Shown here: positions 730-55,663 of the stretch, one piece after another | Layout: each line of letters begins with the position of its first letter | Numbering within the stretch: the first letter of the stretch is position 1 | DNA from: Parietichytrium sp. I65-24A | Lineage: Eukaryota > Sar > Bigyra > Thraustochytrida > Thraustochytriidae | Assembly: GCA_012862575.1 (NCBI GenBank) | Contig: BLSF01000001.1 | Location: 558,001 to 622,000, forward strand | Direction: 5' to 3' | DNA length: 64,000 bases | The notes under the pieces: model-generated | Told to the model about the DNA's origin: nothing | The model's input: only the letters and a program-made list of their open reading frames with translations | Databases searched by the model: none | Position numbers and translations under genes: made by a program

Positions 730-1872
730 ATGGTTCGCGCAGTGGTATCCCTCGCAATGGTCGTTGCTGGGCTGCTCGCAGAGAGCGCTGACGCAGCAAG
801 CTATAATCTGTCACCAACAGAGGGAGAATGCATTACAAGCACTCTCACTTCTGGCGATGAAATCGGAAGCTATTGGGTGTTTAATGGAGAGCAGATCTCG
901 CAAATAAACTGCAATATTCAGGAGCTGAGGGCGGTCATTGCGACAGGGACCTTCACACTGACATCGACTTTCCGGGTCAATACATTCATCGGGTCTCCAG
1001 GAAAGTTTTACATGATTGATAATCAGGATGGCTTCCATGTGCATCCTTCGTCTGGAGCTGTATACTCCAGAATCCACAAGTCGGAAACTGAACGGTCGTG
1101 TGATTACACCCCACAGATCACGACCGGAGTTTGGTATGATTTCACATTGGCATGTAATTCAGGAACCTGCACCAAGTACATTGGTTCTACCGAGTTGTGC
1201 ACGTTCTCCAGTGACTTTTCTCAACTGTCGGGGTCCAACACCCTATACATTGGCGGGGCGCCAACGGTGGGGTACTCCAACGCGCACCTTCGCGGGCTCT
1301 ACTGGGTAGACACCTTTCAACTTCCAACGGCCAATCCGACTTCAAATCCAACTAATCCTCCGGCCACCAGTCCCCCAACCAGTCCGGTCGCGAGTCCAAC
1401 CACTCCAACAAGCTCCCCGACAAAAAACCCTACGATGCAGGGACAAACGTACTCCCCCACAATTTCGACGCCCTCCGTTGCCCCAAGCCTCTCAATATCG
1501 CCCAAGCCACCCACAGACTCGCCAGGCACCGAAGACGCGGAGGGCAAGTCCAGCAACGACTCGCTTCTCTATGTGTGCGTCATCTTTGCTGTCGTTGTCA
1601 TCATCGTTGCTGGTGTGTACTACAGAAAGGGCCGCAACCAAGCTCAACAGTCGGCGATGTTGCCCAATCCGGAGTACGGCGGGGGCGGCCACAGCTCTAA
1701 AGTTACGTTCAGGACAGACAGGAGTACCGGCGCTTCGACTCAGTTTGACAGTGCGGACTTTCGTTCGCATGAGTCAGTGTCCACTACTAGGTCATCGAGG
1801 AGGCCGTTGTTTCGCTTTACATTCCGGCCAGTTTCAAAACCCGTCAACGAAAAGCTGCAGCTCGAAGTCTGA
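730..1872 (+). CDS. LamG-like stalked type I membrane protein, paralog A
   Basis: 380 residues. An N-terminal signal peptide (about 1-22) is followed by a six-cysteine ectodomain (about 25-198) that looks like a concanavalin/LamG-type beta sandwich: a GVWYD strand, a C-x5-C and a downstream Cys, and a closing G-L-Y-W-V-D-T-F strand. Next come a Pro/Thr/Ser stalk built of NPTS/SPTT units (about 200-255), one transmembrane helix (about 277-298, ending YYRKG) and a cytoplasmic tail. The tail has RNQAQQ next to the membrane and ends with RFTFRPVS and a terminal LEV. The ATG at 730 directly starts the signal peptide in good context (caacATGG). The gene at 4258 is a tandem paralog with the same Cys spacing and the same tail motif. 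Role inferred: surface adhesion or carbohydrate sensing. The ligand is unknown and the LamG assignment is by pattern only. Confidence 0.8.
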   Translation: MVRAVVSLAMVVAGLLAESADAASYNLSPTEGECITSTLTSGDEIGSYWVFNGEQISQINCNIQELRAVIATGTFTLTSTFRVNTFIGSPGKFYMIDNQDGFHVHPSSGAVYSRIHKSETERSCDYTPQITTGVWYDFTLACNSGTCTKYIGSTELCTFSSDFSQLSGSNTLYIGGAPTVGYSNAHLRGLYWVDTFQLPTANPTSNPTNPPATSPPTSPVASPTTPTSSPTKNPTMQGQTYSPTISTPSVAPSLSISPKPPTDSPGTEDAEGKSSNDSLLYVCVIFAVVVIIVAGVYYRKGRNQAQQSAMLPNPEYGGGGHSSKVTFRTDRSTGASTQFDSADFRSHESVSTTRSSRRPLFRFTFRPVSKPVNEKLQLEV

Positions 1873-4257
1873 AGAAGCCCATATTATCTGAATTCTGACA
1901 ATCTATGTGGACCTTTTTTGTCCGCTATAGCCCAGCAACAAGCTAGCTAGGCTAGAGCACGCGAATACATGGAGTTGACATGCTGCGCAGAGTCATTGAG
2001 TGGCAACAGTGAAATTTATTCAACGCCGTCACAGCCCGTAAAATATTTAAAAGCCGTACACTAAGTGAACTTGCAGAGTAGAAGAAACACCCGCCTCGCG
2101 CCACGTTCAGGCCGATTGTTCGACCGAGGATGGTGCGGGCACGAATCATACCATGTCGAATGTCGTCATGGCTTTCGCCGCTATTTGTTCCCGTTTTTTT
2201 GCGCCAAGGATGCGTGGTTTCAGACACGAACGCAAACCTAGAGACGGGAATGAGGTGGTGCCCGTCTCCGACGCTATACAATTCTCCCACTTCTGAGCTG
2301 CCTGGAACTCTTGGCGTTTGTCATTCATCCCAGGTCGCGTGTTCTTGCTTGACAGAAAGTCTCTTTTTTTTGGGTGAAAAAGCATAGGGGCCTGTTTTAC
2401 CCAGACTAGCGCGCCATGATCAGAGATTATAGATCATACCAGTACTAGTACCGGAACCCGAAGGACCCGTCCGGGATCGTCAAGAGGCCATCGTTGCGAA
2501 GCTCTTGTTAGATGAGTCCACATGGGTCCCTAACTTACTAGCTAGCTAGAAGCAGGGGTCTCCTCCTTCACTGGCTCAACTGTACCCCCACCCATCAATT
2601 TCCCGTCCGCCGAGATCTTCTCATTGCTATTCTGGCCACACTACTCTTGCCAACCTACTATCTCGAACAGCGATCGTAGTCTCCGAGCGCTCGTCGGTAC
2701 CAGTATGTAATTTTGTGTCATCCAACTTTCCATTGGCATTCCCTGTTCCCCGTTCTCTACATTCTCTACATAAACAAGATCCAAAAACAAGGAACAAATA
2801 ATTGCCCGCGTAGGAGTGGTGTGTACTATACCCAAAACACTGGCTGATCCCTACCGCGACCAGCCGTGAATCGTTCAAGTTCACTGCGCGCGCGAAGTAA
2901 CTGTCAGTCAATTGTACTAGTACTAGTACTCAGTACTTCTTGACAAGTCGCGAAAGAACGTTGTGAAATTCGGGACTCGATTGGACGTTTGTCTGTCTGT
3001 CTGTCTGAATAATCTCAACCAAGAGATGGTCGGCTAACCTGCGGAAGAAAGAGTCCGAGCCTGAGGTAACCGCTTTCGCTGTCAACCGCTTCACAAGTGC
3101 TCGCACATTGAATCAACGGCGAGTTTCTGGTTTAGCATCGACAAATGGGTTAGTTAGATGGAAGATGATGGAAGCAAGGAATGCAGTTCGCGAAACATCG
3201 CGACCGGCAACTGTGAGCCTGAACGCTGGTACGCTGGTACGGTGGTACGGTGTTTCCTTCGAGGCCACGTTCCGCGGTCTCGGCTTGATATGGCTTGATG
3301 CTCGATGGCCTTGATGGTATGGGTATGATACCAAAGCCAAGCTCTGGCGTAGTTTTGGTGTCCGTGATCAGACCATGGCTGTCGATGACTGCCATCACAC
3401 TTTGCCGTGCCTGCGTTATGTAGCGCTACGGACTAGATGTGCACCCACCTGAGTGAGGCAGGCGTCGATGTGCTACTGTGGCCTCTGGGATCGGTTTGAC
3501 TTATTGACACTCAGCACTCTGTAACCCTTCCATAGACCAGCCGTGAAAGCTGCGACACAGTGAAAGGTGGTGATGAAGTGGTGAACCCCCGCTACTGTCA
3601 GCGCTGGCTGTGACTACCTTCTAGCTTCCAGTTTTAGCCCGTCTCCCCTTCTCACATCTTCTCGCCTCTCCCCGTTCCCCCCCGTCCCCCCCCCCCTCCT
3701 CTCTCTTCTCTCGCTTCCCCGATCGTATCATATCGTATCCACATCATCGCAATCGTTGCATCCTCCTTGGACGGCGGTGTCCGAACCAACTAGCTTGAGT
3801 CAGGATTACGGTACTAGAAAGTTGCCATCCAAGTAGCCCAAGTGGGCAGAGTTGGTAACTCTATCTCATTGATGACAGCGATGGGTGTGCGAAGAGGCAG
3901 GAACACATTGCGGAAGTGACGGCTAGCCAGGGTCAGTTGATGTCAGTTGATGTCAGCTGTCGTTGACTGGACTTCAAGTGGCAGAGAGAGAGAGAGAGAA
4001 AGAGAGAGAGGCGGCGACTGCAACAAGGAAGGGACTGAGAATTTGAGCTTAGGGGCAGGAAGAAACCACCTGCTGTTGCCTGCCTTGGTCTTGGGGGAAG
4101 ACGGAGAGGTGAGGGCGGGTCCGTGCGGAACGGAAAAGCAGGGCCCGCAAGACGAGCAGAGCAAGCAAGGCGCTGTGCACAAGGTGAGTGGATCTCATAG
4201 GTTCACAGGTCACGGTTGTAATCTAAGTTGGCCGGGTCCGGGGCAACGCAAAGAAAG
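1873..4257. other. intergenic region between tandem receptor paralogs
   Basis: About 2.4 kb without a supportable gene. It contains short simple repeats: CTAGTA/ACTAGT near 2915-2935, (GTCT)n at 2991-3007, a poly-C stretch at 3676-3697 and (GA)n at 3983-4010. The last 100-200 bases probably form the leader of the gene at 4258. Confidence 0.6.
3983..4010. repeat. GA dinucleotide microsatellite
   Basis: An almost pure run of GA, broken once by AA, in the presumed upstream region of the second receptor paralog. GA tracts recur upstream of several genes in this window (31.25 kb, 40.7 kb, 48.25 kb). Confidence 0.9.
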
Positions 4258-5529
4258 ATGGCCCGCCGCCGCAACTTTGCGTTGCTGCTGGCAGCGGCTG
4301 CCTACAGAGCGGGCACAGACGCGGCGAAAATAGAGCTCAGCCCCGCCTCAGGTCGGTGCAATGAAGGGTATCTGGATTCGGAGAACGATAAAACGTACTG
4401 GGTGAATTACGGATACGAGTTTATGGAGGCGGGCTGCACGATCAGCGACACGTATACTTGGATCAGCGGCGGGACCTATTCAATCTCATCCATCTTCAGA
4501 ATCTCAAACTGGTCAGAAACCGAAGGATATTTTTATATCTTCGATAGCGGGTACAGCTGGGCAATGGAGGCCCGCCCAAATGCTCTCCGCTATCAGGTTG
4601 GACCGAGCTTGTCTGGAAGCTGCTCGTTGTCCACTGCGTTGTCTCTTGGTGTGTGGTATGAGGCCTCTATATCTTGCAAAGCCTATGCATGCGAAATGTA
4701 CCTGGACTCGGAACGTTTGTGCGCATTCACTCTTAATTCTTCGACTCTGCAGTACGTCGAAACACTTTACATGCTCAGCGGTTGGACCAAAAATTACTCT
4801 TCCAAAGGGGACCTGGAGAAAGTGGAGATATATGACACGTATGTGCAGTTCGGAGCGATAGATTCGTCAACCGATTCGCCAACACCTGTGGCAACCGATT
4901 CGCCAACACCTGGCGGAGCCAATTCGCAGACAAGTAGTCCAACAATTGGAAATATTCTTGTAGCCAGTCCTGCCCCGACACCTTCGACCAACTCCCCGAC
5001 GGCCCTGGCAGCCAATTCGACCGGGGAGAGCAGCAAGGAATCTGCTCCTGTAGTGCCCATTGCCATCGGTGGGTCGGTAGGTCTTTTTGTTCTCCTAGGA
5101 GCTGTGGTGTTTGCGGTGGTGTATCGGAAGAAATCCTTTGGCGGCGATGGCAAAGGTGACAATTTTAGACCACCGAGTTTATTTGTCCCCATCAGTCCAA
5201 ATCTCAAGAAGAAGAAAAAGCTTTCAAAAAGCGGCCACGCAAATGACGGCAGAGCTGTCTCGCCACCATCCTCGTCTAGTTTACAGTCTTCTCCCGGTAT
5301 GCCGGCGAGCCATCCATACGTCGAGAACAAAAAGGCTGACAAAACCCCTCCCGCCCTTCCACCCCGTGGAGACGGAAAGCAGACCCCAAAGAAGGGGGTT
5401 GCTGCAGAGAAAGGAGCCCCGCCGCCATTGCCGAAGCGAAAATCCCGCAAGCCTGCAGTCTTGAGATACACCTTTCGGCCAGTATCACGTGCACCCAAAC
5501 GATCCAACTCCATCCTTCTTGAGGTTTGA
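4258..5529 (+). CDS. LamG-like stalked type I membrane protein, paralog B, with SH3- and PDZ-ligand tail
   Basis: 423 residues from ATG 4258; the frame extends upstream only through a non-ATG codon, and 4258 begins a proper signal peptide. The ectodomain matches paralog A: SP-x2-G-x-C start, YWV, GVWYE and the same C-x5-C spacing. A stalk of DSPTP/NSPT units and a transmembrane helix (roughly 263-284, ending YRKK) follow. The cytoplasmic tail is longer than in A. It has a basic KKKKK patch, two PxLPxR motifs of the class II SH3-ligand type (PALPPR and PPLPKR) and the shared motif RYTFRPVS before a terminal LLEV. By the usual rule, a C-terminal hydrophobic-x-hydrophobic sequence is a class II PDZ ligand. 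It was probably produced by tandem duplication with paralog A. Function inferred: receptor or adhesion protein linked to cytoplasmic scaffolds. Confidence 0.8.
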   Translation: MARRRNFALLLAAAAYRAGTDAAKIELSPASGRCNEGYLDSENDKTYWVNYGYEFMEAGCTISDTYTWISGGTYSISSIFRISNWSETEGYFYIFDSGYSWAMEARPNALRYQVGPSLSGSCSLSTALSLGVWYEASISCKAYACEMYLDSERLCAFTLNSSTLQYVETLYMLSGWTKNYSSKGDLEKVEIYDTYVQFGAIDSSTDSPTPVATDSPTPGGANSQTSSPTIGNILVASPAPTPSTNSPTALAANSTGESSKESAPVVPIAIGGSVGLFVLLGAVVFAVVYRKKSFGGDGKGDNFRPPSLFVPISPNLKKKKKLSKSGHANDGRAVSPPSSSSLQSSPGMPASHPYVENKKADKTPPALPPRGDGKQTPKKGVAAEKGAPPPLPKRKSRKPAVLRYTFRPVSRAPKRSNSILLEV

Positions 5530-5868
5530 GAAAGCCTTCACTTTCTCGGGTATATTTCTGTGCATTCACTGCCTTTGTTCGATATTCTGTGCCATTCAAT
5601 ACGTTTAGACCTTTGAAAAATACAACACTCTTACCTTCTAATCCTGGAGCCTTCTTTCCTGCACACAGGAATGAAAACCTCTGGTTTTCTTTCAAACCTT
5701 CAATCAATACATTACGAAAACGATTAAAGAAAATGGGCACCATCCCAAACAGAGTAAGAAACTAGTAGTTAGAGCAAGAAAAGAAAATTAAAAAAGCGCA
5801 TCAACAATTTATTGTTTTCAAGAGTCATTTTAATAAAAAGAATTTACAAGTTTGCAATTTGTACAACA
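5530..5868. other. convergent 3' region
   Basis: A short AT-rich space between the 3' ends of the receptor paralog B (plus) and the HIT-like gene (minus). It holds AATAAA hexamers on both strands (plus at 5832-5837, minus at 5808-5813), consistent with two converging transcription units. No gene is seen. Confidence 0.6.
5808..5813 (-). terminator. poly(A) signal AATAAA of the HIT-like gene
   Basis: The plus strand reads TTTATT, so the minus strand reads AATAAA about 56 bases past the stop codon of the HIT-like gene. It is placed as expected for a eukaryotic cleavage/polyadenylation signal. Assigned by motif and position only. Confidence 0.5.
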
Positions 5869-6771
5869 TCAATCACTCTGATAAACGTCCTTCATGCTCC
5901 GGCCTTCTGCAAGAAATCTGAGCACGGTGCTTGCGCTGATCCAATTGTCCCTATATTCCTTCGAGTAACCAAACTCTGTGAGCGGGCCGACCAAAACATG
6001 CATGTGAAGATACCCCACGGAAGGCATGACGTGAAAGCCAAGTTGAAGATTCTCGGGCCGAAGCCAATACTCGACACTGTGGCCATGGAGCTCGTTGTCG
6101 CGCTTGTCCCAAGTTTGTAGAAAATATGACCTATTTGACTCGACAAACTTCAGTGCACGGTCGCACATGACTTGAACGAGCTCAAGATGCTCAGGCTCGA
6201 GATCAAATACCCATCGCAACTTGATTGAGCCGCTTCTATTAAGCCCGAATCGAGCAGTCGGGATAATTAGCATGTGCCACACGAGTGCGAGATCCCTCCC
6301 AGACACGCCGCGGAACCCGAGCACCATCGAGTCGTCGACATAGTACCCAACGCGACCGCTTTCATTTGGCCTTCCTGGCACTACCTCGCGTGACGCAATT
6401 TTAGCAAACACTTTGTCCCCTTTCTCTTGCGCGCCATCGGTGAGACAAGCCTTGTCGATGTTCTCCGCTTTCTCCGCGTACTTGCCCGTTTTGCACTTGG
6501 AACTCGCCAGTTGCTCCATAGCCGAGGACTCTTTCTCGTCCATGTCCACGGTCAAGGAATAGAACAGCGTGCTGCGATCAAACCATATCCCTCCTCCGCA
6601 GCCTGCTCCCGAGATATCCTCTTTTCGCTTATTCCGTCTCCGTGTCGGCGACAGCCTCTTCAACTTGAGGGCAGCCCGCATTTCCGCACGCTCCTTCCGT
6701 GCCAGGCCTGTGATATGTTTGCGAGTTCTCCGGATCTCTTCGATCTCGCCAACCTCGCGGAACTTGCGCAT
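5869..6771 (-). CDS. HIT-superfamily nucleotide hydrolase/transferase-like protein
   Basis: 300 residues from ATG 6771. The open frame continues upstream but has no further ATG. The N-terminal third is basic and charged, possibly a nucleic-acid-binding or localisation extension. The C-terminal half has a HIT-like layout: a strand reading ALVWHMLIIPTARF, a helix (HLELVQVMCDRALKFV), then GFHVMPSVGYLHMHVLVGPL. Family knowledge: the HIT signature is His-x-His-x-His followed by hydrophobics, and the middle His is the nucleophile. Here the first His is Tyr (Y-L-H-M-H-V) and the nucleophile and third His remain. Aprataxin-, HINT- or DcpS-like roles are all possible and I cannot separate them. The start is uncertain, since a later Met could also be used. 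Confidence 0.55.
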   Translation of the reverse strand: MRKFREVGEIEEIRRTRKHITGLARKERAEMRAALKLKRLSPTRRRNKRKEDISGAGCGGGIWFDRSTLFYSLTVDMDEKESSAMEQLASSKCKTGKYAEKAENIDKACLTDGAQEKGDKVFAKIASREVVPGRPNESGRVGYYVDDSMVLGFRGVSGRDLALVWHMLIIPTARFGLNRSGSIKLRWVFDLEPEHLELVQVMCDRALKFVESNRSYFLQTWDKRDNELHGHSVEYWLRPENLQLGFHVMPSVGYLHMHVLVGPLTEFGYSKEYRDNWISASTVLRFLAEGRSMKDVYQSD

Positions 6772-6913
6772 GCGTCCAGCCTCCGCCACCTTACTTTCCG
6801 CTCTTTTCCTCCCTTTCCCTTCGAATGACGCACTTGACAGTTGCCTCCTCGACACCTCGCCTTTCGCACTTGCGACCAATTGCAGCTCTGTCCTATTCCT
6901 TCGTCCAATTCGA

Positions 6914-6968
6914 CTTTGAACTTTCAACTTTCAACACTCAACTTTCAACTTTCAACTTTGAACTTCCA
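6914..6968. repeat. CAACTTT-type tandem repeat
   Basis: Seven-base units CAACTTT and GAACTTT follow each other with one interruption (CAACACT). The array sits just upstream of the HIT-like gene, read on its strand. No coding potential is evident. Confidence 0.85.
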
Positions 6969-8392
6969 CTTCCGCCTCGTGCTTTTCCGCTTTGCACCTT
7001 TCGCGTTTGCACCTTTGTCTCCTTTGTTTCATCAATCATCAACCCTGCTCTTCATTCTTCGAGGGACTACCGGGATGGATAGCGGCGGGTAGGAGGGAGC
7101 GAAACGTGGGTCTACGCTGGGTGATAGCGAGAGACTAGTGCATAGCACGCACCGCGGTCTTCTGGGCCAGTAAGAGATGATAGCGCGAGGGTAGGAGGGA
7201 GAGGGAAGTTGTGGGGGAAAGGAGGGAAAGGGCTTTGATTGTTTGTTTTTCTTTCTGAGTTGGTTGCTCTGTTGATCTCCTTTTAGCTGACTGTGAGTTA
7301 ATATCTGTGAAGTTGTGAAGAAAACCACTGTGTGGTTGGACGATACACGGACAAAGAAAAAGAAAAAAGAGAAAGAGAAAATGGATAGAGTGAAAGAACT
7401 CCTCCACGCGGGTTTCACTCATGTACGACTAGCCAGGCCCACACAACTACTGAGGTACTGCATACGTGCGCTAAGAACAAGTTACCTGCCCGAAACTGGA
7501 TTGTGAGGCAAACTTTGAATCGTTTAATAAGCAAAACCATGGCTGGCCCTACCACGCGCTCTTGAAGGCTGGGGTGGTTAAGTATTATTATATAAGATAG
7601 CGAGATCAACTTCGTGTGATCGCCAAGTTAGGAGCCAAACCAGTAGGATCAACCATATGTCCTTTAGGACCTGGCTCCACCAAGGCTCGCTCTTTGACGC
7701 AGTTTCAAATGCATGTTCACGCTTTGACTAACAGTAAACTAAAAGCGTAAGCGACATAACAAAATCGAGCTCCTGAAAGCATCGAGATTGATTCCTCCCA
7801 CGACAATTGACGACGCGAAAATGAATAACTTACACATTACAATACACCCCGTTTTACATCACCAGGATCGATTAGTCGCTTAGCCGAATGGTGTAGTCCC
7901 GAGAAACCAAACTGGGCAACCCAGCAGCTAGGATGAGAGGTAGAGGCCGCGTACGAGTAGGCAGGTTGTTAGTCAGAAAGGTAGACGTTGGTGCAGGTTG
8001 TGAAGAAGGAGGAATGAAGAAGACCAGACTCCTTTGCAAGTGCAGTGTATCTTTGCAAGTGCGTGATCAGTAAAGCATTTGGTTGATTTTTTTCTGAATT
8101 CTGGAAGAATTCGTAGACGCCGACCTTCTAAGCCACACAACTCTTTGGTGGAAATTTGTTGTGCTAGTACTGCGAGCAGTACTGACAGTGAATACTGGTA
8201 CCGGTTCGATGTTTTGCTGCCACAGCCTGAGCAACCCGCATTTACCCGGACTCTTCGCCGAGCCCAGCCCATTCATGATCAACAGTCCCTGGACGAGCTG
8301 TCTCCACTGGTTCTGCTTTGTTCTGCTTCTCGGAGGGACGATTGAGGAAATTGAGGAAATCGAGGAATGGCAAAGACAAAAAGTTTACAGTT

Positions 8393-8398
8393 TTTATT
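8393..8398 (-). terminator. poly(A) signal AATAAA of MED6
   Basis: TTTATT on the plus strand gives AATAAA on the coding strand only about 15 bases past the MED6 stop. The distance is short but usable. Assigned by motif and position. Confidence 0.45.
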
Positions 8399-8412
8399 AA
8401 AGGACAAAAAAT

Positions 8413-9147
8413 TCAGGTTTGCTGAGCAGGCGTGGAGGCAGCTGCCGGAGCTTGCGCACCCTCTGCATCCTTTCGCGGCTCCGATTTGGTTTCTGGGTTT
8501 GGCAATTCCGACGAGGTAGCCGATGAGTCAGAAGTTGGCTCTGGCGGGACGAATTCGGAAACCAGATCCTTCAAAATGGATCCAATTTCCTCTTCCCCTC
8601 TGCGCTCCAGCTGCTCGTCCCGCCTTTTCCTCCGCATTTCATAGGCCACGCCCTCCGAAGATTGCCGCCACAATTTTAGCGCAGGGTCGTCGCCCTCGAA
8701 ATGCCAGGTGAACCCTTTGCTTGGTGCATATCGCACCGACTTGTACAGCAGGTCGAACGCGTGTTGCACGTGCGTGGATGTCTTTAAGAGACGAGTCACT
8801 ATGAGACGCTGCAGGGTGGGGGCAGCGTAAATAGTTTTGTCCAAGATGTAATAAAGCCCCAGCCTGCGAACTATGCTATGGGACACCCGTTCCTGCTTGA
8901 CAACAATAAACAAGACAGGTTCGTGCCCGCTGTGCAGCAGTCTGTACTCGATACCCTTCATACTGTTCAGCACCTCCAGACCGAGCCGCTGCATCCTCAC
9001 CATCTCGTTGTTTGACTTTTTGTCGTAAAATGGGCTCAGCGCAAAGTAATCGAGAGCGTTGTTTGGATGCAGCCCATTCATGCGAATGAAATTATCATCC
9101 AGAAACGCCAGCTCTGCAATCTCATCTTCTCGAAGATTCGACGCCAT
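8413..9147 (-). CDS. MED6: Mediator complex subunit 6
   Basis: 244 residues, complete, ATG at 9147. MED6 is a head-module subunit of Mediator, which links transcription activators to RNA polymerase II. The diagnostic stretch is near the N-terminus: a Phe-Leu-Asp-Asp start, GLHPNNALDYFALSPFYD, then SNNE and an MQ pair. It is followed by GIEYRLLHSG and an FIVVKQERVS strand. The MED6 core spans about residues 8-150, ending near FDLLYKSVRYAPSKGF with a Trp-His pair. The C-terminal 90 residues are charged and then Pro/Ala/Ser-rich, as is common in MED6. Length fits the family (about 220-300). It is transcribed away from the GT90 gene across a 1 kb divergent spacer. Confidence 0.9.
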   Translation of the reverse strand: MASNLREDEIAELAFLDDNFIRMNGLHPNNALDYFALSPFYDKKSNNEMVRMQRLGLEVLNSMKGIEYRLLHSGHEPVLFIVVKQERVSHSIVRRLGLYYILDKTIYAAPTLQRLIVTRLLKTSTHVQHAFDLLYKSVRYAPSKGFTWHFEGDDPALKLWRQSSEGVAYEMRRKRRDEQLERRGEEEIGSILKDLVSEFVPPEPTSDSSATSSELPNPETKSEPRKDAEGAQAPAAASTPAQQT

Positions 9148-31431: not shown

Positions 31432-34197
31432 ATGCGAAGGGCCCTCATAGCGGTGGCGATGGTCGCCGCGGCGCACGGCGGCGCAGTGAAAATGGGCCTG
31501 TTTGCGTATCTGGAACTGGAGAACGAGTTCTGGCTGTCCATGGCGGTGGGGGCCGCCTTCGGGATGAAACACTGCAATGAGAGGTATGCCGGGATCATAG
31601 AGGCTATTTCGGAGTCAAGTCTGCAAAGGTGTAGCGGGCTCGAGTTTCAGTATCAGTTGTACAATACAGAAGTGTCCCCATCAAAGGCTGTGAGTGACTT
31701 CTTAGCGGGAAGCGATACCATGGATTTGATCATTGGAGCTGTGTACTCCTCCGTGAGTATACCGCTCTCAACCGTGGCCAACGTGAAGAAAAGGCCATCC
31801 ATCAGCTTTTCGTCCACATCGCCGCAGCTCAACGACCGTATTTCTGGAACCAGCCTGTTCACAAGAACAATTCCATCTGACAGCGAGACAGCACAGGTGA
31901 TGTGCATCCTCTTCGACAAGATGTCGCTCGACAATGTAGCACTGATATACATTGATGACGGCTACGGTGTGGGGTACCGGGATGCATTGACGACCAATTG
32001 CGGGGAGCGCGATATAACCGTGCACGCCACCAGCTTCGAGTCTGGCAACTCGCAGAGCGTTGATTTTGCCTTGGAGTACATCAGAGATCGAAGATTAAAC
32101 ATCATTGTAGTGGCGTCGTTCGATGAGGACCTCGGCTCGATCATGAAGCAAACGATCGCCAGTGGCCTCACAGGCGAGGGAAAGCTTCTTGTGTTTAGCG
32201 ACGGCGTCACGACCGACGGCGTGCAATCATACTTGAGCGAAAACCAGGATGAAGAGACCGTGGAGGCTTTTCGACATTCGATCAGAATACAAGCAGAAGG
32301 AAGCAACCCTAGCGCTGAGTTTCTTCGCTTTCAAGATGAATGGGTTAATGAGTTTCCCAAGCACGTGGACTTTATTAATTCGCTCATGCCCAGCGAGGAC
32401 TTCTACATCAACGAGACATTCTTCGAAGCGACTCGGTATCTCGGAGGCTATGCGCCATTCGCATACGACGCATCAGCGTTGGGATGCCGTGCAATTTGCA
32501 ACACTATATCTTCGAGCGCCAACGCCACCCCAGGGTCTACCGATGGTGACGCGATCTACACCGCCGTTTTGGATGATTTCTTTATCGGATCCTCGGGAGA
32601 GATCGATATTGAAGCTACCACGGGAACACGAAAATTGTCGACAGCGACTTTTCTTGCATCTGGATTCGAATTTGTCCACGGGGACCTGATAACAGTCGAA
32701 GCAAAAAGTGCGGCGCTTTACAGCTCGGACGAATGGACTCTCTCTGACTCGTTTCCGCAAGTTCCATCTTCTGTGTCGTTCTCCACGGAGCACAACTATA
32801 TGAACATGGGTCTCAAATGGGCCTCCGTATGCCTTGCAGTCGGCCTAATTTTCGTATGCATGTTCCTCATCGGTTTCACTTGGCAAAAGAGATTCACCAG
32901 AATCATTTCCCGCGCTCAGCCCTCGATTATGAACCTGTTTCTCATGGGTATCATTCTATCAACGATTTCCACTCTCTTCATCGGACTTGAGGATGTTGAC
33001 AGCGCGTTCTCCGACGTCTTTTTAGACTTTTCCTGTGCTGCATTTTTCTGGTTCTGGTCGGTGGGAACTGCTCTTACTTTCGGATCTCTTGTTGCCAAGT
33101 TGTACAGGATCTGGAGGATCTTTTCCAATAAAAATCTGAGACGGATCAAGATCACCAATAGGGATTTGTATATCTTCATTGGAGCAATTTGCTCCGTTGA
33201 TCTTGTGGTCCTGACCGTATGGAGCATCGTTGCACCAATGAAATACCATAGGGAAACACTGCGAACTGATATATACGGCAACAACATCGAGGACTATGGC
33301 GAGTGCTTCTCTGAGCATAGCTCGGTGTTTATCACTCTTCTCCTCGCATATCAGGTCGTTCTCTTCGTGGCAGGAGTAATCTTCAGCTACAAGGTGCGCA
33401 AAGCCGATTCTGAGTACCAAGAGAGCCGATGGATTATGATCTCACTGGTGAGTCAGTGCCAAATGTACCTCCTTGGAGTTCCGTTGGTGTTCGCTTTTGG
33501 ACCTGAGAGCTCTGATTATCGCTTCTTGGTCATGTTTTTCGTGATCTGGGCGAACAATGTTATCATGGTAGCAGTTCTCTACATTCCGAAGATGCGGGCG
33601 CTCAGCAAGAACATCAAGCGCGCCGCAAGCGCCAATAGCGCGACAGGATTCCCTGGAGGAGTATACACAACCGGAGTCAAGCTACCTGCCATGGCAGATA
33701 ACTTACTCGAGGAGGTCTCCAGCGGGTCATCGCCTAAACCGAAGCGACTGTCCACATCTCCGCAGAACAGCGTGCTAGAGCTCTTCCACCTGAGGAGGTC
33801 AGCGAGCTCGCGACTCGTGGTAAACCATCGCGAAGCTTGCACGCAATGGAACGACCAAGACGCCGAGCGCGCTGCAGGTAAAGGTATCGAGGAGAAAAGC
33901 TTGATGCTCGTCACCGAAAATGAGCAGCCAAAACTGCATGATGACCCTTCAGTATTTTCGCAAGAAAGCCCGCACGTTCACTTTATTCTCCCAAGCGCAA
34001 GTCCGCGCAGCTCTTTGAGGCTCGGCCGATCAAAGATTGCGCATGGCGGCTTGGTTCGTTGTCACTCGCTCTCAGACATACCAGATGTGGAATTGGAGCC
34101 CGACTCCCAGACCGACTCTGTCGAAAAGACTGCTGACGACCAAACACAAACAAAGGATGTCTCGATAGACATCTCTGACGACTTAATTGTAACTTGA
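31432..34197 (+). CDS. class C G-protein-coupled receptor, GABA-B-receptor-like
   Basis: 921 residues, ATG at 31432. A signal-peptide-like N-terminus (MRRALIAVAMVAAAHGG) leads into a bilobed ligand-binding (ANF/Venus-flytrap) region of about 20-450: AFGMKHCNERYAG, then LIIGAVYSSVSIPLSTVA, then DNVALIYIDDGYGVGYRDAL and INETFFEATRYLGGYAPFAYDA. A 7TM class C bundle follows at about 456-722, beginning WASVCLAVGLIFVCMFLIGF. It has the E-C-F loop cysteine, YRIWRIF at the end of TM3 and IPKMRAL after TM7. A 200-residue Ser-rich cytoplasmic tail follows. There is no Cys-rich domain between the two modules, which places it with GABA-B-type and not metabotropic-glutamate-type receptors. The ligand is unknown; in protists such receptors may sense amino acids. 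A Pumilio-type element lies just after the stop. Confidence 0.85.
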   Translation: MRRALIAVAMVAAAHGGAVKMGLFAYLELENEFWLSMAVGAAFGMKHCNERYAGIIEAISESSLQRCSGLEFQYQLYNTEVSPSKAVSDFLAGSDTMDLIIGAVYSSVSIPLSTVANVKKRPSISFSSTSPQLNDRISGTSLFTRTIPSDSETAQVMCILFDKMSLDNVALIYIDDGYGVGYRDALTTNCGERDITVHATSFESGNSQSVDFALEYIRDRRLNIIVVASFDEDLGSIMKQTIASGLTGEGKLLVFSDGVTTDGVQSYLSENQDEETVEAFRHSIRIQAEGSNPSAEFLRFQDEWVNEFPKHVDFINSLMPSEDFYINETFFEATRYLGGYAPFAYDASALGCRAICNTISSSANATPGSTDGDAIYTAVLDDFFIGSSGEIDIEATTGTRKLSTATFLASGFEFVHGDLITVEAKSAALYSSDEWTLSDSFPQVPSSVSFSTEHNYMNMGLKWASVCLAVGLIFVCMFLIGFTWQKRFTRIISRAQPSIMNLFLMGIILSTISTLFIGLEDVDSAFSDVFLDFSCAAFFWFWSVGTALTFGSLVAKLYRIWRIFSNKNLRRIKITNRDLYIFIGAICSVDLVVLTVWSIVAPMKYHRETLRTDIYGNNIEDYGECFSEHSSVFITLLLAYQVVLFVAGVIFSYKVRKADSEYQESRWIMISLVSQCQMYLLGVPLVFAFGPESSDYRFLVMFFVIWANNVIMVAVLYIPKMRALSKNIKRAASANSATGFPGGVYTTGVKLPAMADNLLEEVSSGSSPKPKRLSTSPQNSVLELFHLRRSASSRLVVNHREACTQWNDQDAERAAGKGIEEKSLMLVTENEQPKLHDDPSVFSQESPHVHFILPSASPRSSLRLGRSKIAHGGLVRCHSLSDIPDVELEPDSQTDSVEKTADDQTQTKDVSIDISDDLIVT

Positions 34198-48446: not shown

Positions 48447-48868
48447 TTGTTGAAGGTCCAAAGAGACCGAGTTAGTCAGCCGTCGTAGTTCGTGAGCCCG
48501 AGCCTGAGCCTGAGCCGCGCTTGTTGACTTGAACTGACGGACGGGGAATTGACAGAGAGCGCTTCGATGCAACCTGTAATACTCCGGACACCTGCGAAGT
48601 CCCTATCACAAGCATCGCAATCCCGTTCGTAGCCGTTCTGCGGCACAGTCCGTGACATAGCAGCACTGCACACAGGCGACATAGTCAGTGCCGGCGAGTT
48701 GTTGTCGTGGCTGTTGCTGTTCGTGCGGCCGCACCGGCAGAGGAGGAGGGAACAGCGGCTGGCAGCGCTTGGAAAGGGCTGCTGCGCGCTCGTTTCGGAG
48801 GCCTGGAGTTTCATTTATTATTTCGAGGAGAGTTGGCAGCAGGTAATACGTTTGCAGGCCTGGCCGCC

Positions 48869-51800
48869 ATGGAATCCACAGATGCACATGGTCATGTGCA
48901 GTCTCCCGGAGACTTGAGAAAAGGAGAACTAGATGGGAGACATGCCATGGGAGTGAAGGCGTCGACAATGCTCAAGATCATACCGAATGGTGACCATAGG
49001 AACTCAAGGATTAGCCCGACGGCTGCTTTAGCACAAAGAGGAACTACGGCAAATCGATTCAGAAAGAGCTCAACTTCATCTGAAGCGAGAGTCGCCCTAT
49101 TCGCCATCCTGATCAGCCAAATTATCATCGTGCCGTTCCGACTTGGCTTCTCAAACAAAGGTGCAATCGACAAAAGCGCTCTTTGGTATATTATCTTGGA
49201 GTTGGCTCTTTTGGACACTTTTCCTACATACCTCACATTCCATTTCTTTGTTGGCATCTTGAGTGGGAAGACAAAGCAAGGAGCTCGAGAACTAAAGCGA
49301 GGCAGCTCAGAGACCCAACTTTCCACAGTAGAGCGGCTCGCGGAGCTTGCTAAGCGTAAGAAAACGCGGCAGTGGCTGGCTGTCTTCAAGTACGCGTTTA
49401 CTTTTGCTGTGAACACGCCATTTATAGAACTTGCGAGTATGCTTATCGCCCAATTTGTGGCACAGCAAGGACTGACTGCCTGGGCATGGACGAGGATAAT
49501 CAAGCTCTTGCGAGCAGTTGACTTGTTCTCGTTTGTTGATGCCTTGGGCGCCTCTCTGAACAAGAAGAAGATTGGTTTATCCGCTTCGGAGCTCAGATGT
49601 ATTTTGATATTCTTCTTCGCGCTACTTGTTGCACATATTTCGGCTTGCGCATGGCACGTCCTAACACTGGAACAGATCAGCACGCCTCTCACTACAAGCG
49701 AGGCATATCTAGATGCTGTATATTTCACTCTCACGACCATCAGCACCTGCGGCTTTGGGGACGTCGTTCCGATCAACTTTGAGCAAGTGGCCTTCACGGT
49801 AGCTCTAGAGCTTGCAGCCATCTCAATCTATATCATTCTTCTCTCAGCTCTGACATCGCTGATCAGCAACCGCGACGCAACCAGACTGGCTCATCACAAA
49901 CGGCACTTTCAGGTTCGCAACTACTTGTCCGAAAATTTTGTTTCGCCAGTGCTGATTGCCCGCACCAATAGGGTGTTTGATCTCTTGTGGGCTCGTATGG
50001 GCGGCTACGATGACAATGTTCTTCTAAAACAGCTGCCACACTACATTCAGACCAGCATCAAGGTTGAGCTATTCGCGCCACACATCTTCTCCAAAAGCCT
50101 TTTTCAACGGTGCAATTTGGATGTAATCCAAGCGCTAGTGTCAACGGCTGAGCTGGAGACGTTCCTTTCGAATGAGCGGCTTTACAACAGGAATGAAGAA
50201 GCCATCAAATTCTACGGCGTCACCTCGGGAAAGTTCATTTTGAGCATTCGGGCTAAGAGTTCGGAAGAGCGCGGAAGCACGTTGGTGGAGCTCCAGTGCA
50301 TTGAAGGAGATGTATTCGGTCACCATGAGTGCATCGCCGGCCAGGTATACGCAAGCGGTGCTTATGCGTCAATGCAATTTGGATTCTCGGAAGCCTTCAT
50401 CATCACAAGAGATGCGCTAAAGTCCGTGATTCCAAAGAGCGTGTACGACCAAATAGCTGCCGACGCTATGCGCGAGATAGTAGAGGAGACATGGAAATCC
50501 GACCATCGTCTTAGCGAAGGAGCCCTGGAGAACTCCTCATTCAAAAGGCTTAACACGGGCTTTGAAAGCCTGAGTATAATCCCGCGTGGAGCGCTCCAGT
50601 TTTTTGCGACTAAAAACTCGCAACAAGATATTGATTCCGTTGCAAAGGATTCGGACTCTCAAGTAGCAGGTAGGCAGGGAAATAAAATTGTTCCATACCC
50701 CTCCTCGCATTCAAGTGCTGCAAGTGACGGGTGGGTCGGGCCAGGAGGACCAAAGCAATCTCAAGATCATGCTAGTATGTTTGGGAGGCGACAGAGTAGC
50801 TTGTTGGCTACACAGATTCAACGTCAGTCTTTGAAAGCCGGGTCGATGAAGAGAAGTTTTGGAGCAGCCCCAAGATGTCTGAAGAAGCCAGAGGAGGAAA
50901 CATTGGGGTCACTTGCTCTGAACAGCTGTGCAGGCGTCGGATGCCTCATATACTGGATCCTGTCGCCTTGTTCCGTGGTTTTCATCACATCCTTCTCTGA
51001 TCCACTCGTATACATTCAGTATGTTGCGGACTTGTTCTTCTGGTTCTTCTTTGGCAGATTGGTCATTTTGTCAATCGCGCAGCACAGACGTTGTCCAATA
51101 TCGAGACGAAGCATCGCTTATTTGGGCGTGAATCTGCTGCTTTTACTCCCTTACGATGCGTTCATAATGGCGCTACCCACGGCATCATCCGCATCTTGGG
51201 CATCCCTGCGCATGGTCAAGATTGGTATCGCTGTTCAGTTTCCCCTGTATCTTTCATACATGGAGTTTCTTTTGGAAAGGCGTTTTGGCCGGCTTGACAC
51301 CTCTCTGATTCTAGCTCTCAGGCTCCTGCTGGCAATTCTGCTGTTTGCGTGGTGGATTGTTTGTGCATTGGTGGCCGTGGACTACACTAGTGGAGTCAGT
51401 GTGTCAGATCCATCTGAGCTGAGGTCTTCTTGGTCGACAATAGATAACGTTCTGCAGCGAGAGTGCGGAGCTGGAGAATGTAGCCTGTCCATGAAGGTCA
51501 CTCGAGCCATCTACTGGACATTCACGGTGATCACTACCGTAGGCTATGGTGACATTCCCACGTTAGATACAAGCCAAAAATTAGTGACGGTGTGTGGCAT
51601 CTCCTTTGTAAGCCTGCTGCTTTACCCAGCGATTGTATCAAATGTGAGTGTGCTGCAGTCCGTTCAATCTGACGGACAAATTGATCTTGAAAACAGAAAC
51701 AACACCCCTCGCGATGTTCTCGCGATGCAAGCAAAGACCGCATTCATGGTCAACCAGTACCCAGATCCGTCCAGGAAAGATGTCAAAGTGTACGTCGAAC

Positions 51801-54800
51801 ATGTCACAATGAAAGGGACTACTTTGAGAGACGTTACCACGCAGGTGCCACACTGGCTTGGAAAGCAGATTGCAGGTGATATTCTTGGATCGCTCATTCG
51901 GTCGAGTGCCACATTAGACGCAGAACTCCAACACAAGCAGATTGGAGGGCCCGAGGTGGTCGCTCCACACTCCTACGGAAATGCCACTATCAGATATCAA
52001 GGCATTTTCAAGCACGTTTCGGAGGAATGTTTGATGGAAATATGCTATCATCTGGAAAGTGAATTTGCCCCACCATTCCGAACCATTGTAAGTCTCGGCG
52101 ACTCTCCAACGACTGTATTTTTTTGCGAGAAGGGTAAACTTGAGGCATTTTCCCCCTTTGCTTCCGTAAAAGATGATCAGACGGCAACAAAGAAGAGAGG
52201 AGGAAGGCGAGGCAGCAAGTCCGGCCAACGAAACTCTATAAAGCTATCGTATCAGCAAGACGAGCTTTCACGGGACGTGCTAGTCGAGGAGGAGATTCGG
52301 CCGGGTAAATACTTTGGAGTTGTCGAGGCTATTAAATGTGAGTCATTTCGCAGCGGAGTCAGAACCGTGGAGAGCTCTTCACTGCTGACAATATCATCGA
52401 AAAAGCTCTGCAGTATTTTGAACCACTTCCCGGCAGACGACGATCTTCTTCAAGGATTGGCCGATGAGGCTGCCTGTCGCCGCATTCCTTCGCAAGCAAA
52501 GGAGACGGACACCCGCCCGCCACTCAAAATGCAAAGGACCACCACACTTCGCCGCGGGAGCGTGGCTGGAATAGCTAGTGATTCCGTGGACTTTAAAGCG
52601 TGGATCATCTTTCCCTCCTCATCGAAGCAACTGGCGTTGGACCTTGTTGCGATGTTCTTCATCCTACTCACCCAGCTTCTCGTGCCACTCGAAATTGGAG
52701 CAATCACCAACTCTTTTTGCACCGCAAGCGCGTACCCTTGGATCAAAGCATTTTTGATCATAAACGTTGTGACGGACATATACGCGGCTATTGACTTGTG
52801 TTTGCATGCTTTTGTGTTCGCAGTTCGAAGCGAGAGTTTCTATCTCACGAGTCACAAAGAGATTTTCTCGGCTTATATCCGGTCGAGACGATTCCTGATC
52901 GACATGATCGCGACCATCCCTTTTGACTGGATTGTCCTTGCCTTCCTAGGAGGCGGGACGGAAAATCTGTACATCGCCCTTTGGTTCAGAGTACCAAAGC
53001 ATATTCGTTTGTTGCAGATCAAGTCATACGAAATTGAACTGGTCCATGTGCTCCAGGATAAGATGAGGATCAGCGCCAACAAAGTAAAGCTGCTACAACT
53101 GCTCGGAGTCCTCACTGCCTTTGCTCATTGGCTCACTTGTCTTTGGCTTCGTCTTTCTCACCTAGAAATCAGCTGGGCAAGGTATGACTGTGTTCTGCTT
53201 GGCACTTGCTTTAGCGAAACGGACAATGCGGGAGCTGAAGATAACGCCACTTCCGAAGGAGACTGCAAGGATTATAGTATCGTGCAGCTCTACGTCAGGG
53301 GAGTGTACTGGGTGTTTGTGACTCTAAATTCCGTGGGCTTTGGGGACATCGTCCCGTCTTCTGTGCTTGAAACTGTTTTCGCTATTGGGGTCATGTTTTT
53401 AGGCGCCGGGATGTATGCATTCTTGATTAGTAATTTGGCCATTGTGGTTGCGAATCTAGATAAAACGGCAACTCACCACGCAGACTTCCAGGAGCAAATG
53501 AGAATATTTGTAGCGCATCGCAGGCTTCCGCAATTTCTCCGCGACAAAATCTTCAACTACTTGGACTACCATTGGCAAAATAATCTTGGAGGCGACCCAG
53601 AGGAGATTGTGACTTTCCTTCCGCGGTCCGTGCAAATTGACATCAAGGCGTCCTTAGACGCTGGACAACTAAGCGAAGTAGCGCTTTTCAAGGGTCTCCC
53701 CCCGCAAGCTTTCACAGCACTCATAAAGAGTTTGCACATGAGGTCTTTTTCACCTGGTGACCTCGTATACAACGACGGCGACTGTGCAACTTCCCTGTAC
53801 GTTCTCGTCAAAGGCTCGGCATGTCGGCTTGACGCATCTGGAGTCACCACAGTCTCAAAGCATGACAATGCCGGGGTTTTCGGAGTTGAGGAATTCTTCG
53901 ACTGCACTCCACTTTCGACGGTCTTGCAGGCGAAGACGTTCTGTGAAATGCTTGTGCTTGACAGGGAAGACCTGCAGACTATCCTCGAAAGTTACGACTG
54001 TGAGGAGCAAGTGCGAAGCAATGCTGCTTCCCTCCAGAGTGAGTCGGAGACTCTAAAATTGGCTGGAAACCTGAAGAACAGAAAGGTTACCAAGATGCTT
54101 GCTGACGAACCGATCGTTCTTGACACGAGCGGAGTTGTACCCGGGAACCACAGAAGGATGGCTTTCGAAGCGTTCGTTGTGTTAACTCTCGTCTATGTGG
54201 CCGTGAGCGTCCCATTCAGAATTGCATTTTTCGCCGAGGACAGCACTCGCTCTCAAGACTCTGAAATTTTTGTGGGGTGGATGATTTTTGATGTTCTATT
54301 TGTGAATGTCATCGGAGCGATAGATGCATTTAACCATGCGAGACGATACGCCTATTTCTTGGATGGCGATATAATCTGTGATCGAAAGAAGATTCGCAAG
54401 AATTATCGAGCCACTTGGCGAAATACTGACATCGTCTCCCTGGCTTCTATGGACCTTTTTATCTTTGCTGTCGCTGTAGTTGTCGCCCCCGACCAAAAGT
54501 TCCGAGTTTGGTCGTGGTCGAGAATTTTGACAACTGGAAGATTGGCCAGAATGTCCGGCTATTATCTGCCGCTCATTGAATATCACCTCCACGAATACCA
54601 GATCGGGATCAGCGCGAGTTCTATGAGAGTGCTTGTGAAAGTCTTCATCTCATTGTTCATAATGCATTGGGTGGCGTGTGGCTGGTTCTTCATCGCCATG
54701 AAGGAGAGCTTGATGACCTCGTGGCTCTCAGGGGCGAAGGCAACCCTCTCGAAAAATGTTTTCGACGGTCTTTCCATCTCTGAGGCGTACTTGATGTCTT

Positions 54801-55663
54801 GCTACTTTACGGTGACAACCTTCACCACTGTTGGATTCGGAGATTTGCGTGCTCAAACGTTGTCAGAGACTTTATTCGCGATCCTAGTTCTGCTAACTGC
54901 TCTATTTGTGTACGCCGATTTAGTAGCAAATATGACGAATGCAATTCAGAATGTCGACGCGTCAAACAGCAGACTGCACTCCCTTCACGTTGCGATTCGG
55001 CGTATGGTAAAGTCTCGCAATTTGAACGAACAGATTGCCAACCAAGTAGAGGAGTTCCTGGATTCAAACTTGTTGCTGTCTAAACATGGCATTCGGGAAG
55101 CCAACTTGCTAAAGTATTTGCCAAAGAGTATGAGACTGGAAATTGCGATGCATATGCACGCGCACGCATTCTTGCGATCCCCTGGATTCAATCTCGTTCC
55201 GAAGGCGCTGATTCGTGAGATTGTCCTGCTTTTGAAGAACCGCGGAATGGTGAGTGGGGATGTTTTTTGCTTTCAGGGCGGCCAAGTCACCGAGCTGTGC
55301 ATCATTCGAACCGGGGCGCTTCATTTGTTGAACGAAGCAGATGTGGACGCACTTCCAGAGGTCAAGCAGACAAGTCGTTTAGAGCCAAGCAACTCCAGGA
55401 CCTCCAGTAGATTGGGATTTAAAAACGAGTCTGCGCTGAACCTGGGCATCCTGAAACCAAAGGTGGCAAGAGTTGGCGACATGCTCGGACAAGAATGCTT
55501 GCTCGGGCTCCTGGCTTCGTTTACCATCCTTAGTGGCGGTTTGACCGAAATCTATGTCATCTCTATTGAAGCCTTGAACAGCTGCCTTCAACACCACCCT
55601 CTCCACCGCCAAGTCATTTTGACCGGGGCGAAGGAAGCGCTTGAAAAGATGGTCAAGCTTTGA
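48869..55663 (+). CDS. four-repeat cyclic-nucleotide-gated K+ channel (CNGK/tetraKCNG-like)
   Basis: 2264 residues from ATG 48869 in a perfect GCCGCCATGG context. One polypeptide contains four successive channel units, each with six membrane spans, a pore, a C-linker (for example LPRSVQIDIKASL) and a cyclic-nucleotide-binding-like domain. The selectivity filters are TCGFGD (293-298), TVGYGD (890-895), SVGFGD (1488-1493) and TVGFGD (1987-1992), all of the K+ type. Family knowledge: most CNG/HCN channels are assembled from four separate subunits. The sea-urchin and fish sperm CNGK (tetraKCNG) protein has this pseudotetrameric single-chain layout and a similar length. The binding domains are degenerate. 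Only repeat 2 keeps an Arg-Thr pair (Arg1165) at the phosphate-binding site, and repeat 3 is otherwise best preserved but has Leu there. Expected role: plasma- or ciliary-membrane hyperpolarisation in response to cGMP or cAMP. No intron is needed. Confidence 0.85.
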   Translation: MESTDAHGHVQSPGDLRKGELDGRHAMGVKASTMLKIIPNGDHRNSRISPTAALAQRGTTANRFRKSSTSSEARVALFAILISQIIIVPFRLGFSNKGAIDKSALWYIILELALLDTFPTYLTFHFFVGILSGKTKQGARELKRGSSETQLSTVERLAELAKRKKTRQWLAVFKYAFTFAVNTPFIELASMLIAQFVAQQGLTAWAWTRIIKLLRAVDLFSFVDALGASLNKKKIGLSASELRCILIFFFALLVAHISACAWHVLTLEQISTPLTTSEAYLDAVYFTLTTISTCGFGDVVPINFEQVAFTVALELAAISIYIILLSALTSLISNRDATRLAHHKRHFQVRNYLSENFVSPVLIARTNRVFDLLWARMGGYDDNVLLKQLPHYIQTSIKVELFAPHIFSKSLFQRCNLDVIQALVSTAELETFLSNERLYNRNEEAIKFYGVTSGKFILSIRAKSSEERGSTLVELQCIEGDVFGHHECIAGQVYASGAYASMQFGFSEAFIITRDALKSVIPKSVYDQIAADAMREIVEETWKSDHRLSEGALENSSFKRLNTGFESLSIIPRGALQFFATKNSQQDIDSVAKDSDSQVAGRQGNKIVPYPSSHSSAASDGWVGPGGPKQSQDHASMFGRRQSSLLATQIQRQSLKAGSMKRSFGAAPRCLKKPEEETLGSLALNSCAGVGCLIYWILSPCSVVFITSFSDPLVYIQYVADLFFWFFFGRLVILSIAQHRRCPISRRSIAYLGVNLLLLLPYDAFIMALPTASSASWASLRMVKIGIAVQFPLYLSYMEFLLERRFGRLDTSLILALRLLLAILLFAWWIVCALVAVDYTSGVSVSDPSELRSSWSTIDNVLQRECGAGECSLSMKVTRAIYWTFTVITTVGYGDIPTLDTSQKLVTVCGISFVSLLLYPAIVSNVSVLQSVQSDGQIDLENRNNTPRDVLAMQAKTAFMVNQYPDPSRKDVKVYVEHVTMKGTTLRDVTTQVPHWLGKQIAGDILGSLIRSSATLDAELQHKQIGGPEVVAPHSYGNATIRYQGIFKHVSEECLMEICYHLESEFAPPFRTIVSLGDSPTTVFFCEKGKLEAFSPFASVKDDQTATKKRGGRRGSKSGQRNSIKLSYQQDELSRDVLVEEEIRPGKYFGVVEAIKCESFRSGVRTVESSSLLTISSKKLCSILNHFPADDDLLQGLADEAACRRIPSQAKETDTRPPLKMQRTTTLRRGSVAGIASDSVDFKAWIIFPSSSKQLALDLVAMFFILLTQLLVPLEIGAITNSFCTASAYPWIKAFLIINVVTDIYAAIDLCLHAFVFAVRSESFYLTSHKEIFSAYIRSRRFLIDMIATIPFDWIVLAFLGGGTENLYIALWFRVPKHIRLLQIKSYEIELVHVLQDKMRISANKVKLLQLLGVLTAFAHWLTCLWLRLSHLEISWARYDCVLLGTCFSETDNAGAEDNATSEGDCKDYSIVQLYVRGVYWVFVTLNSVGFGDIVPSSVLETVFAIGVMFLGAGMYAFLISNLAIVVANLDKTATHHADFQEQMRIFVAHRRLPQFLRDKIFNYLDYHWQNNLGGDPEEIVTFLPRSVQIDIKASLDAGQLSEVALFKGLPPQAFTALIKSLHMRSFSPGDLVYNDGDCATSLYVLVKGSACRLDASGVTTVSKHDNAGVFGVEEFFDCTPLSTVLQAKTFCEMLVLDREDLQTILESYDCEEQVRSNAASLQSESETLKLAGNLKNRKVTKMLADEPIVLDTSGVVPGNHRRMAFEAFVVLTLVYVAVSVPFRIAFFAEDSTRSQDSEIFVGWMIFDVLFVNVIGAIDAFNHARRYAYFLDGDIICDRKKIRKNYRATWRNTDIVSLASMDLFIFAVAVVVAPDQKFRVWSWSRILTTGRLARMSGYYLPLIEYHLHEYQIGISASSMRVLVKVFISLFIMHWVACGWFFIAMKESLMTSWLSGAKATLSKNVFDGLSISEAYLMSCYFTVTTFTTVGFGDLRAQTLSETLFAILVLLTALFVYADLVANMTNAIQNVDASNSRLHSLHVAIRRMVKSRNLNEQIANQVEEFLDSNLLLSKHGIREANLLKYLPKSMRLEIAMHMHAHAFLRSPGFNLVPKALIREIVLLLKNRGMVSGDVFCFQGGQVTELCIIRTGALHLLNEADVDALPEVKQTSRLEPSNSRTSSRLGFKNESALNLGILKPKVARVGDMLGQECLLGLLASFTILSGGLTEIYVISIEALNSCLQHHPLHRQVILTGAKEALEKMVKL

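Follow-up and report, generated by a model that had tools for sequence, protein, structure and literature searches.

The window analysed here is a stretch of 64,000 nucleotides from Parietichytrium sp. I65-24A. Within it lies a gene whose product is best read from its sequence as a single-chain, four-repeat, K+-type channel of the CNBD superfamily (KCNH/CNG/SthK-like), in a protist. The open frame runs from 48707 to 55663 on the forward strand and begins with GTG. Taken from the first in-frame ATG (48869) to the stop (55663), the coding sequence (48869..55663, +) specifies 2264 aa. This ATG lies in the context GCCGCCATGG, which is strong and Kozak-like, and it is the single such start. Codon-frequency scoring, trained on other channel genes of the same genome, placed frame 1 at the top of the six frames in 36 of 37 windows of 60 codons and in all of the inter-repeat linkers. 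The frame contains no N. The coding signal in one frame, linkers included, and the lack of N thus indicate one coding sequence and not adjacent genes run together. A chance origin of a frame this long at approximately 50% GC, (61/64)^2264, is out of the question. The uninterrupted 2264-codon frame described in the first-pass annotation was therefore borne out. Elsewhere in the window, a class C GPCR (ANF_receptor and 7tm_3), resembling GABA-B and taste receptors, is encoded at 31432-34194 (+).

Pfam matches to the channel comprised Ion_trans (four), Ion_trans_2 (four), and cNMP_binding (three). A profile built from the same genome’s single-repeat channels marked the repeats at residues 71-559, 685-1224, 1236-1738, and 1739-2264. 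Each of the four has six transmembrane segments (6TM), a pore loop, a C-linker, and a CNBD. All of the features given below are on the forward strand.

Repeat 1 (49079..50545, HMM envelope) contains S1-S6, a C-linker, and a CNBD whose core lacks ligand residues. Its S4, WAWTRIIKLLRAVDLF (49481..49528), has three K/R, and its selectivity filter is TCGFGD (residue 293; 49745..49762). The phosphate-binding cassette region, FGHHE... (50312..50371), has no Glu/Arg at the ligand positions. A cytoplasmic linker of ~125 aa (50546..50920), in which the coding frame is maintained, leads to repeat 2 (50921..52540, HMM envelopes). Repeat 2 is the most divergent, with 6TM, C-linker, and CNBD, an S4, WASLRMVKIGIAVQF (51197..51241), with two K/R, and the filter TVGYGD (residue 890; 51536..51553). 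Its cassette region, FGVVE...FRSG (52310..52369), has Val for Glu and an Arg one position off. Repeat 3 (52574..54082) is the most canonical, and KCNH2 (E 4e-38) and SthK are its nearest relatives by sequence. The S4, LWFRVPKHIRLLQIK (52979..53023), has four K/R, the filter is SVGFGD (residue 1488; 53330..53347), SVGFG being like hERG, and the cassette region, FGVEE...PLST (53876..53935), lacks Glu/Arg at the ligand positions. The junction between repeats 3 and 4 carries the motif NLKNRKVTKML (54068..54100). Repeat 4 (54083..55660), again with 6TM, C-linker, and CNBD, is nearest to KCNH5/KCNH1 by sequence (E 2e-32). It has an S4, WSWSRILTTGRLARM (54509..54553), with three K/R in the core and four in the aligned stretch, the filter TVGFGD (residue 1987; 54827..54844), and a cassette region, LGQE... 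(55481..55537), without Arg.

The K+ signature T/S-x-G-Y/F-G is thus present in all four pore loops, with Cys in place of Val in repeat 1. The filter motifs and their positions match exactly those listed in the first-pass annotation, which was also right about the Phe in three of the four filters and the Cys in the first. Its expectation of an asymmetric pore is supported. The repeats differ in other ways as well. Identity between them is 17-20%, which is no higher than their identity to other channels. The turret, measured from the S5 Cys to the filter, spans 32, 57, 63, and 49 aa in repeats 1 to 4 and contains zero, two, three, and one cysteines, respectively. Linker lengths are also unequal, the first being ~125 residues and the following two short.

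AlphaFold2 models were made for repeats 1 and 2, the two weakest and most divergent. The helices of a 6TM part are present in both (pLDDT 71 and 65), as are a C-linker and the beta-roll of a CNBD. Because of these models, repeats 1 and 2 can both be credited with a CNBD despite the Pfam count of three, which agrees with the earlier claim of a C-linker and CNBD-like region in each repeat. The best PDB matches to the models were SthK, CNGA, AKT1, GORK, and HCN, with Z of 17-20 over ~350-390 residues (SthK Z 20 for repeat 1; GORK/CNGA Z 18-19 for repeat 2). The large overall rmsd of these matches reflects uncertain domain packing in the models. VIA and Foldseek did not discriminate among CNG, SthK, and plant K+ channels as relatives (Z differences <3). 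By sequence, the nearest solved relatives are KCNH2, KCNH1/5, and SthK. No CNGK entry is among the PDB matches listed for the channel, including those of repeats 3 and 4. A scan of viral contigs with the channel profile gave, among the matches listed, mainly the pore region at low identity.

Cyclic-nucleotide-binding CNBDs carry a Gly-Glu in the phosphate cassette, followed by an Arg about 10 residues on. The Arg is described as crucial in the work on zebrafish CNGK (PMC4749565). In the alignment, the Glu position is occupied in repeats 1 to 4 by His, Val, Val, and Gln, and the Arg position by Tyr, Phe, Leu, and Ser. A one-residue alignment gap could bring the displaced Arg of repeat 2 into register. 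Channels of the same genome serve as controls. The single-repeat channels L027 and L028, and repeats 2 and 3 of the four-repeat protein L023, keep both Glu and Arg, and the cassette of single-repeat L006 has Asp and Arg. The label “CNG” given by the first-pass annotation is unsupported because these phosphate-cassette residues are absent from all four CNBDs. Since they are missing here and kept elsewhere in the genome, direct gating of the four-repeat channel by cAMP or cGMP is unlikely.

The S4 segments have 2-4 K/R per repeat, compared with 4-7 in the same genome’s single-repeat channels with K+ filters. The highly charged S4 of voltage-gated KCNH channels was not found in the four repeats, and KCNH S4 segments are more strongly charged. 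With so few charges, voltage sensitivity should be weak. Three RRxS sites are located in cytoplasmic linkers or loops. This number is close to that expected by chance or slightly above, so kinase control was not raised to an explanation, and such regulation of the channel is only a possibility.

The source genome (42.5 Mb, 172 contigs) was searched for paralogues. Three further four-repeat frames were identified, ranging from 2446 to 2727 aa. L023 (2530 aa) has the filters TVGFGD, TVGYGD, a degenerate VAVVIGD, and SVGFGD. The filters of L024 (2727 aa) are TVGYGD, TVGFGD, TVGYGD, and TVGYGN, and those of L025 (2446 aa) are TVGYGD, TVGFGD, GVGYGD, and TVGYGN. There is also one two-repeat frame, L026 (1498 aa), and there are about ten single-repeat CNBD channels. 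An independent census based on the pore family PF07885 found three or four pore matches in exactly the four four-repeat frames and two in L026. L023 (G000:C5:382500-392400, 1046-8635, minus strand), with its degenerate third filter and the canonical nucleotide-binding residues of repeats 2 and 3, could possibly be a nucleotide-regulated pseudotetramer with just three K+ filter loops. Two single-repeat 6TM-CNBD proteins, at L030 1272-2729 (+) and L031 1753-3144 (-), have an intact nucleotide cassette and no K+ filter (FFGEG and LLGDG, respectively). These are perhaps non-conducting subunits or voltage-sensor proteins. At one contig end (G000:C16; L029 1-1740), a Copia-like polyprotein is directly upstream of an 18S rRNA 3’ tail. 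Both this tail and the second one, at L022, are truncated, which leaves the rDNA incompletely assembled. Pattern searches for 18S yielded 3’ tails only, and the tail appears stramenopile-like. No strong match to PfaD was obtained, which speaks against a typical DHA-producing thraustochytrid.

The history of the repeats was explored with a tree under a mixture model, using bacterial and KCNH outgroups, and alternative groupings were compared by AU tests. The bacterial outgroup came from single-repeat CNBD channels found in bacterial genomes. Repeats 2, 3, and 4 of L024 each group with the same-numbered repeat of L025 (supports 96/84, 99/94, and 98/99). The common ancestor of the two genes therefore already had at least these three repeats and, most simply, would have had all four. 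A register shifted by two between L024 and L025 was rejected (AU p=0.0025). The two repeats of L026 are sisters and adjoin single-repeat L027, a placement that marks the two-repeat gene as a separate duplication. Repeats 1, 3, and 4 of the window protein cluster (94/83), a grouping that is weak owing to long branches, and the free tree joins repeat 1 with repeat 4. With branches of this length, attraction could distort the placement. Positional orthology of the window protein with L024/L025 is indistinguishable among registers 0, 1, and 2 (AU 0.13, 0.10, and 0.14) and marginal in register 3 (0.045). Monophyly of the window protein’s own repeats fits as well (AU 0.41). Positional orthology with L023 was rejected in all four registers (AU p=0.017-0.049), as was positional orthology over all four of the four-repeat proteins (AU p=0.0097). 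Because L023 cannot be matched repeat by repeat, the four-repeat layout may have more than one origin, even within this genome. The window protein, L024, and L025 all carry a junction motif, NL[NK]xxK[VL][TN]K, between repeats 3 and 4, and L024 has it between repeats 2 and 3 as well. It was found in no other channel protein examined. As it was defined from the very proteins that share it, its weight is no more than supportive. The most economical interpretation is a single old four-repeat family, comprising the window protein, L024, and L025, with possibly a second origin for L023. The first-pass annotation had offered either an ancient pseudotetramer or an independent internal duplication. 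The latter fits better, although not as a recent or local event. The duplication appears to be old because there are three more four-repeat genes, two of which share an ancestor with at least three repeats.

Other explanations can be considered for the architecture and its origin. As the evidence is genomic DNA only, the gene could be four neighbouring single-repeat genes or sets of exons joined in reading, or an assembly concatenation. This is highly improbable given the coding signal in one frame across the linkers, the one Kozak-like start, the absence of N, and the same layout at three other loci; the repeats are also too divergent for a collapsed array. The protein could also be a true CNGK/tetraKCNG orthologue, an ancient pseudotetramer, either inherited from a shared ancestor of animals and this protist or acquired through gene transfer, with a later loss of pseudo-symmetry. 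The architecture is identical, the filters are GFG/GYG as in CNGK (PMC4749565), and the CNGK-like pairing of repeat 1 with 3 and 2 with 4 is not rejected (AU p=0.21). Zebrafish CNGK, which is gated by pH, provides a precedent for the loss of cyclic-nucleotide gating in a family member (PMC4749565). However, tetra-repeat CNBD channels are known from metazoans and choanoflagellates, with two-repeat ones in oomycetes and dinoflagellates; among labyrinthulomycetes, diatoms, and brown algae, the same survey found no tandem forms (PMC7576140). Four-repeat CNBD channels outside animals and choanoflagellates are not described in the literature found. By published description, CNGK is pseudo-symmetric: its four domains are nearly identical and its linkers uniformly short (PMC6259924). 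This is not the case for the window protein. L023, a second four-repeat gene, is unmatched to the window protein repeat by repeat. CNGK orthology is considered unlikely. Of the CNGK/tetraKCNG layout claimed by the first-pass annotation, the four repeats in one chain stand; the pseudo-symmetry of published CNGK descriptions was not found. An origin independent of animal CNGK, which was compared by description only, is favoured.

It is also conceivable that cyclic nucleotides bind to the CNBDs of the four-repeat channel and gate it. Cyclase and phosphodiesterase domains are numerous in the genome, which also encodes flagellar radial-spoke proteins; the CNBD fold persists in the models of repeats 1 and 2, and the sequence is still compatible with non-canonical nucleotide binding. 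However, the cassette Glu and Arg are in register in none of the four repeats, and repeat 3, which in sea urchin holds the working site, reads FGVEE...PLST. No link between the organism’s cyclase/phosphodiesterase and flagellar machinery and the four-repeat channel was seen. Gating of this kind is considered quite improbable, more so than orthology with CNGK. Among the enzymes themselves, a 2603-codon frame (G000:C41, ~204196-211554) contains two cyclase domains and PDEase_I in a fused cyclase-phosphodiesterase, and frames on C83 and C31 resemble it.

The preferred reading, which we regard as probable, is a pseudotetrameric K+ channel of the CNBD superfamily with a gating ring that is not steered by direct nucleotide binding and with an origin independent of CNGK. 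The four repeats would fold around one shared pore, and the filter would be made of the four non-identical K+ signature loops seen in the sequence. The four C-linker/CNBD discs would form the usual gating ring beneath the pore. Since no repeat keeps the nucleotide contacts and the S4 segments are weakly charged, the ring is most likely a structural or protein-regulated gating module, like that of KCNH or of the pH-gated zebrafish CNGK. Candidate stimuli other than direct cAMP/cGMP include pH, Ca2+/calmodulin, lipid, and phosphorylation of the linkers. The channel is predicted to hyperpolarise the cell or to set its resting potential. It would be a member of a small, old family of four-repeat genes, most likely produced by internal duplication independent of animal CNGK.

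There may be an even chance that a four-domain, single-chain K+ channel was invented in this protist lineage independently of animals, perhaps twice, and is now asymmetric in the manner of Nav/Cav. If so, there is a family of asymmetric 24-TM K+ channels with repeat-specific turrets and filters and silenced nucleotide sites, and of the two inventions one would have given rise to the window protein and its relatives L024 and L025, and the other to L023. In Nav/Cav, linking four domains in one chain leaves each domain free to specialise. The only four-domain single-chain K+ channels described so far are the near-symmetric CNGKs of animals and choanoflagellates. Four mutually diverged four-repeat genes in one protist provide a second case for the effects of chaining. 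The case bears on where along the chain the filter, the voltage sensor, and the ligand site are retained, and on whether pseudotetramers recur.

Several known systems resemble the window protein in part. The sperm-type K+ channel CNGK of sea urchin, zebrafish, and choanoflagellates shares the one chain, the four 6TM-CNBD repeats, and the GFG/GYG K+ filters. Against CNGK as known here by description, the window protein has repeats of 17-20% identity, unequal turrets and linkers, canonical ligand residues in none of its four CNBDs, and membership in a four-gene family. The two-repeat channels of oomycetes and dinoflagellates are likewise tandem CNBD channels of protists with diverged, specialised repeats, but they have two repeats and not four. 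Among solved channels, KCNH (EAG/ERG) comes nearest in sequence to repeats 3 and 4, with an SVGFG filter and a CNBD that is not nucleotide-gated, but is built from four separate single-repeat chains. SthK and other bacterial CNBD K+ channels resemble repeats 1 and 2 in fold and repeat 3 in sequence. Unlike the window protein, these are single-repeat homotetramers with a working ligand site. In its degree of repeat specialisation, the window protein is nearer to Nav/Cav, while its layout is that of CNGK.
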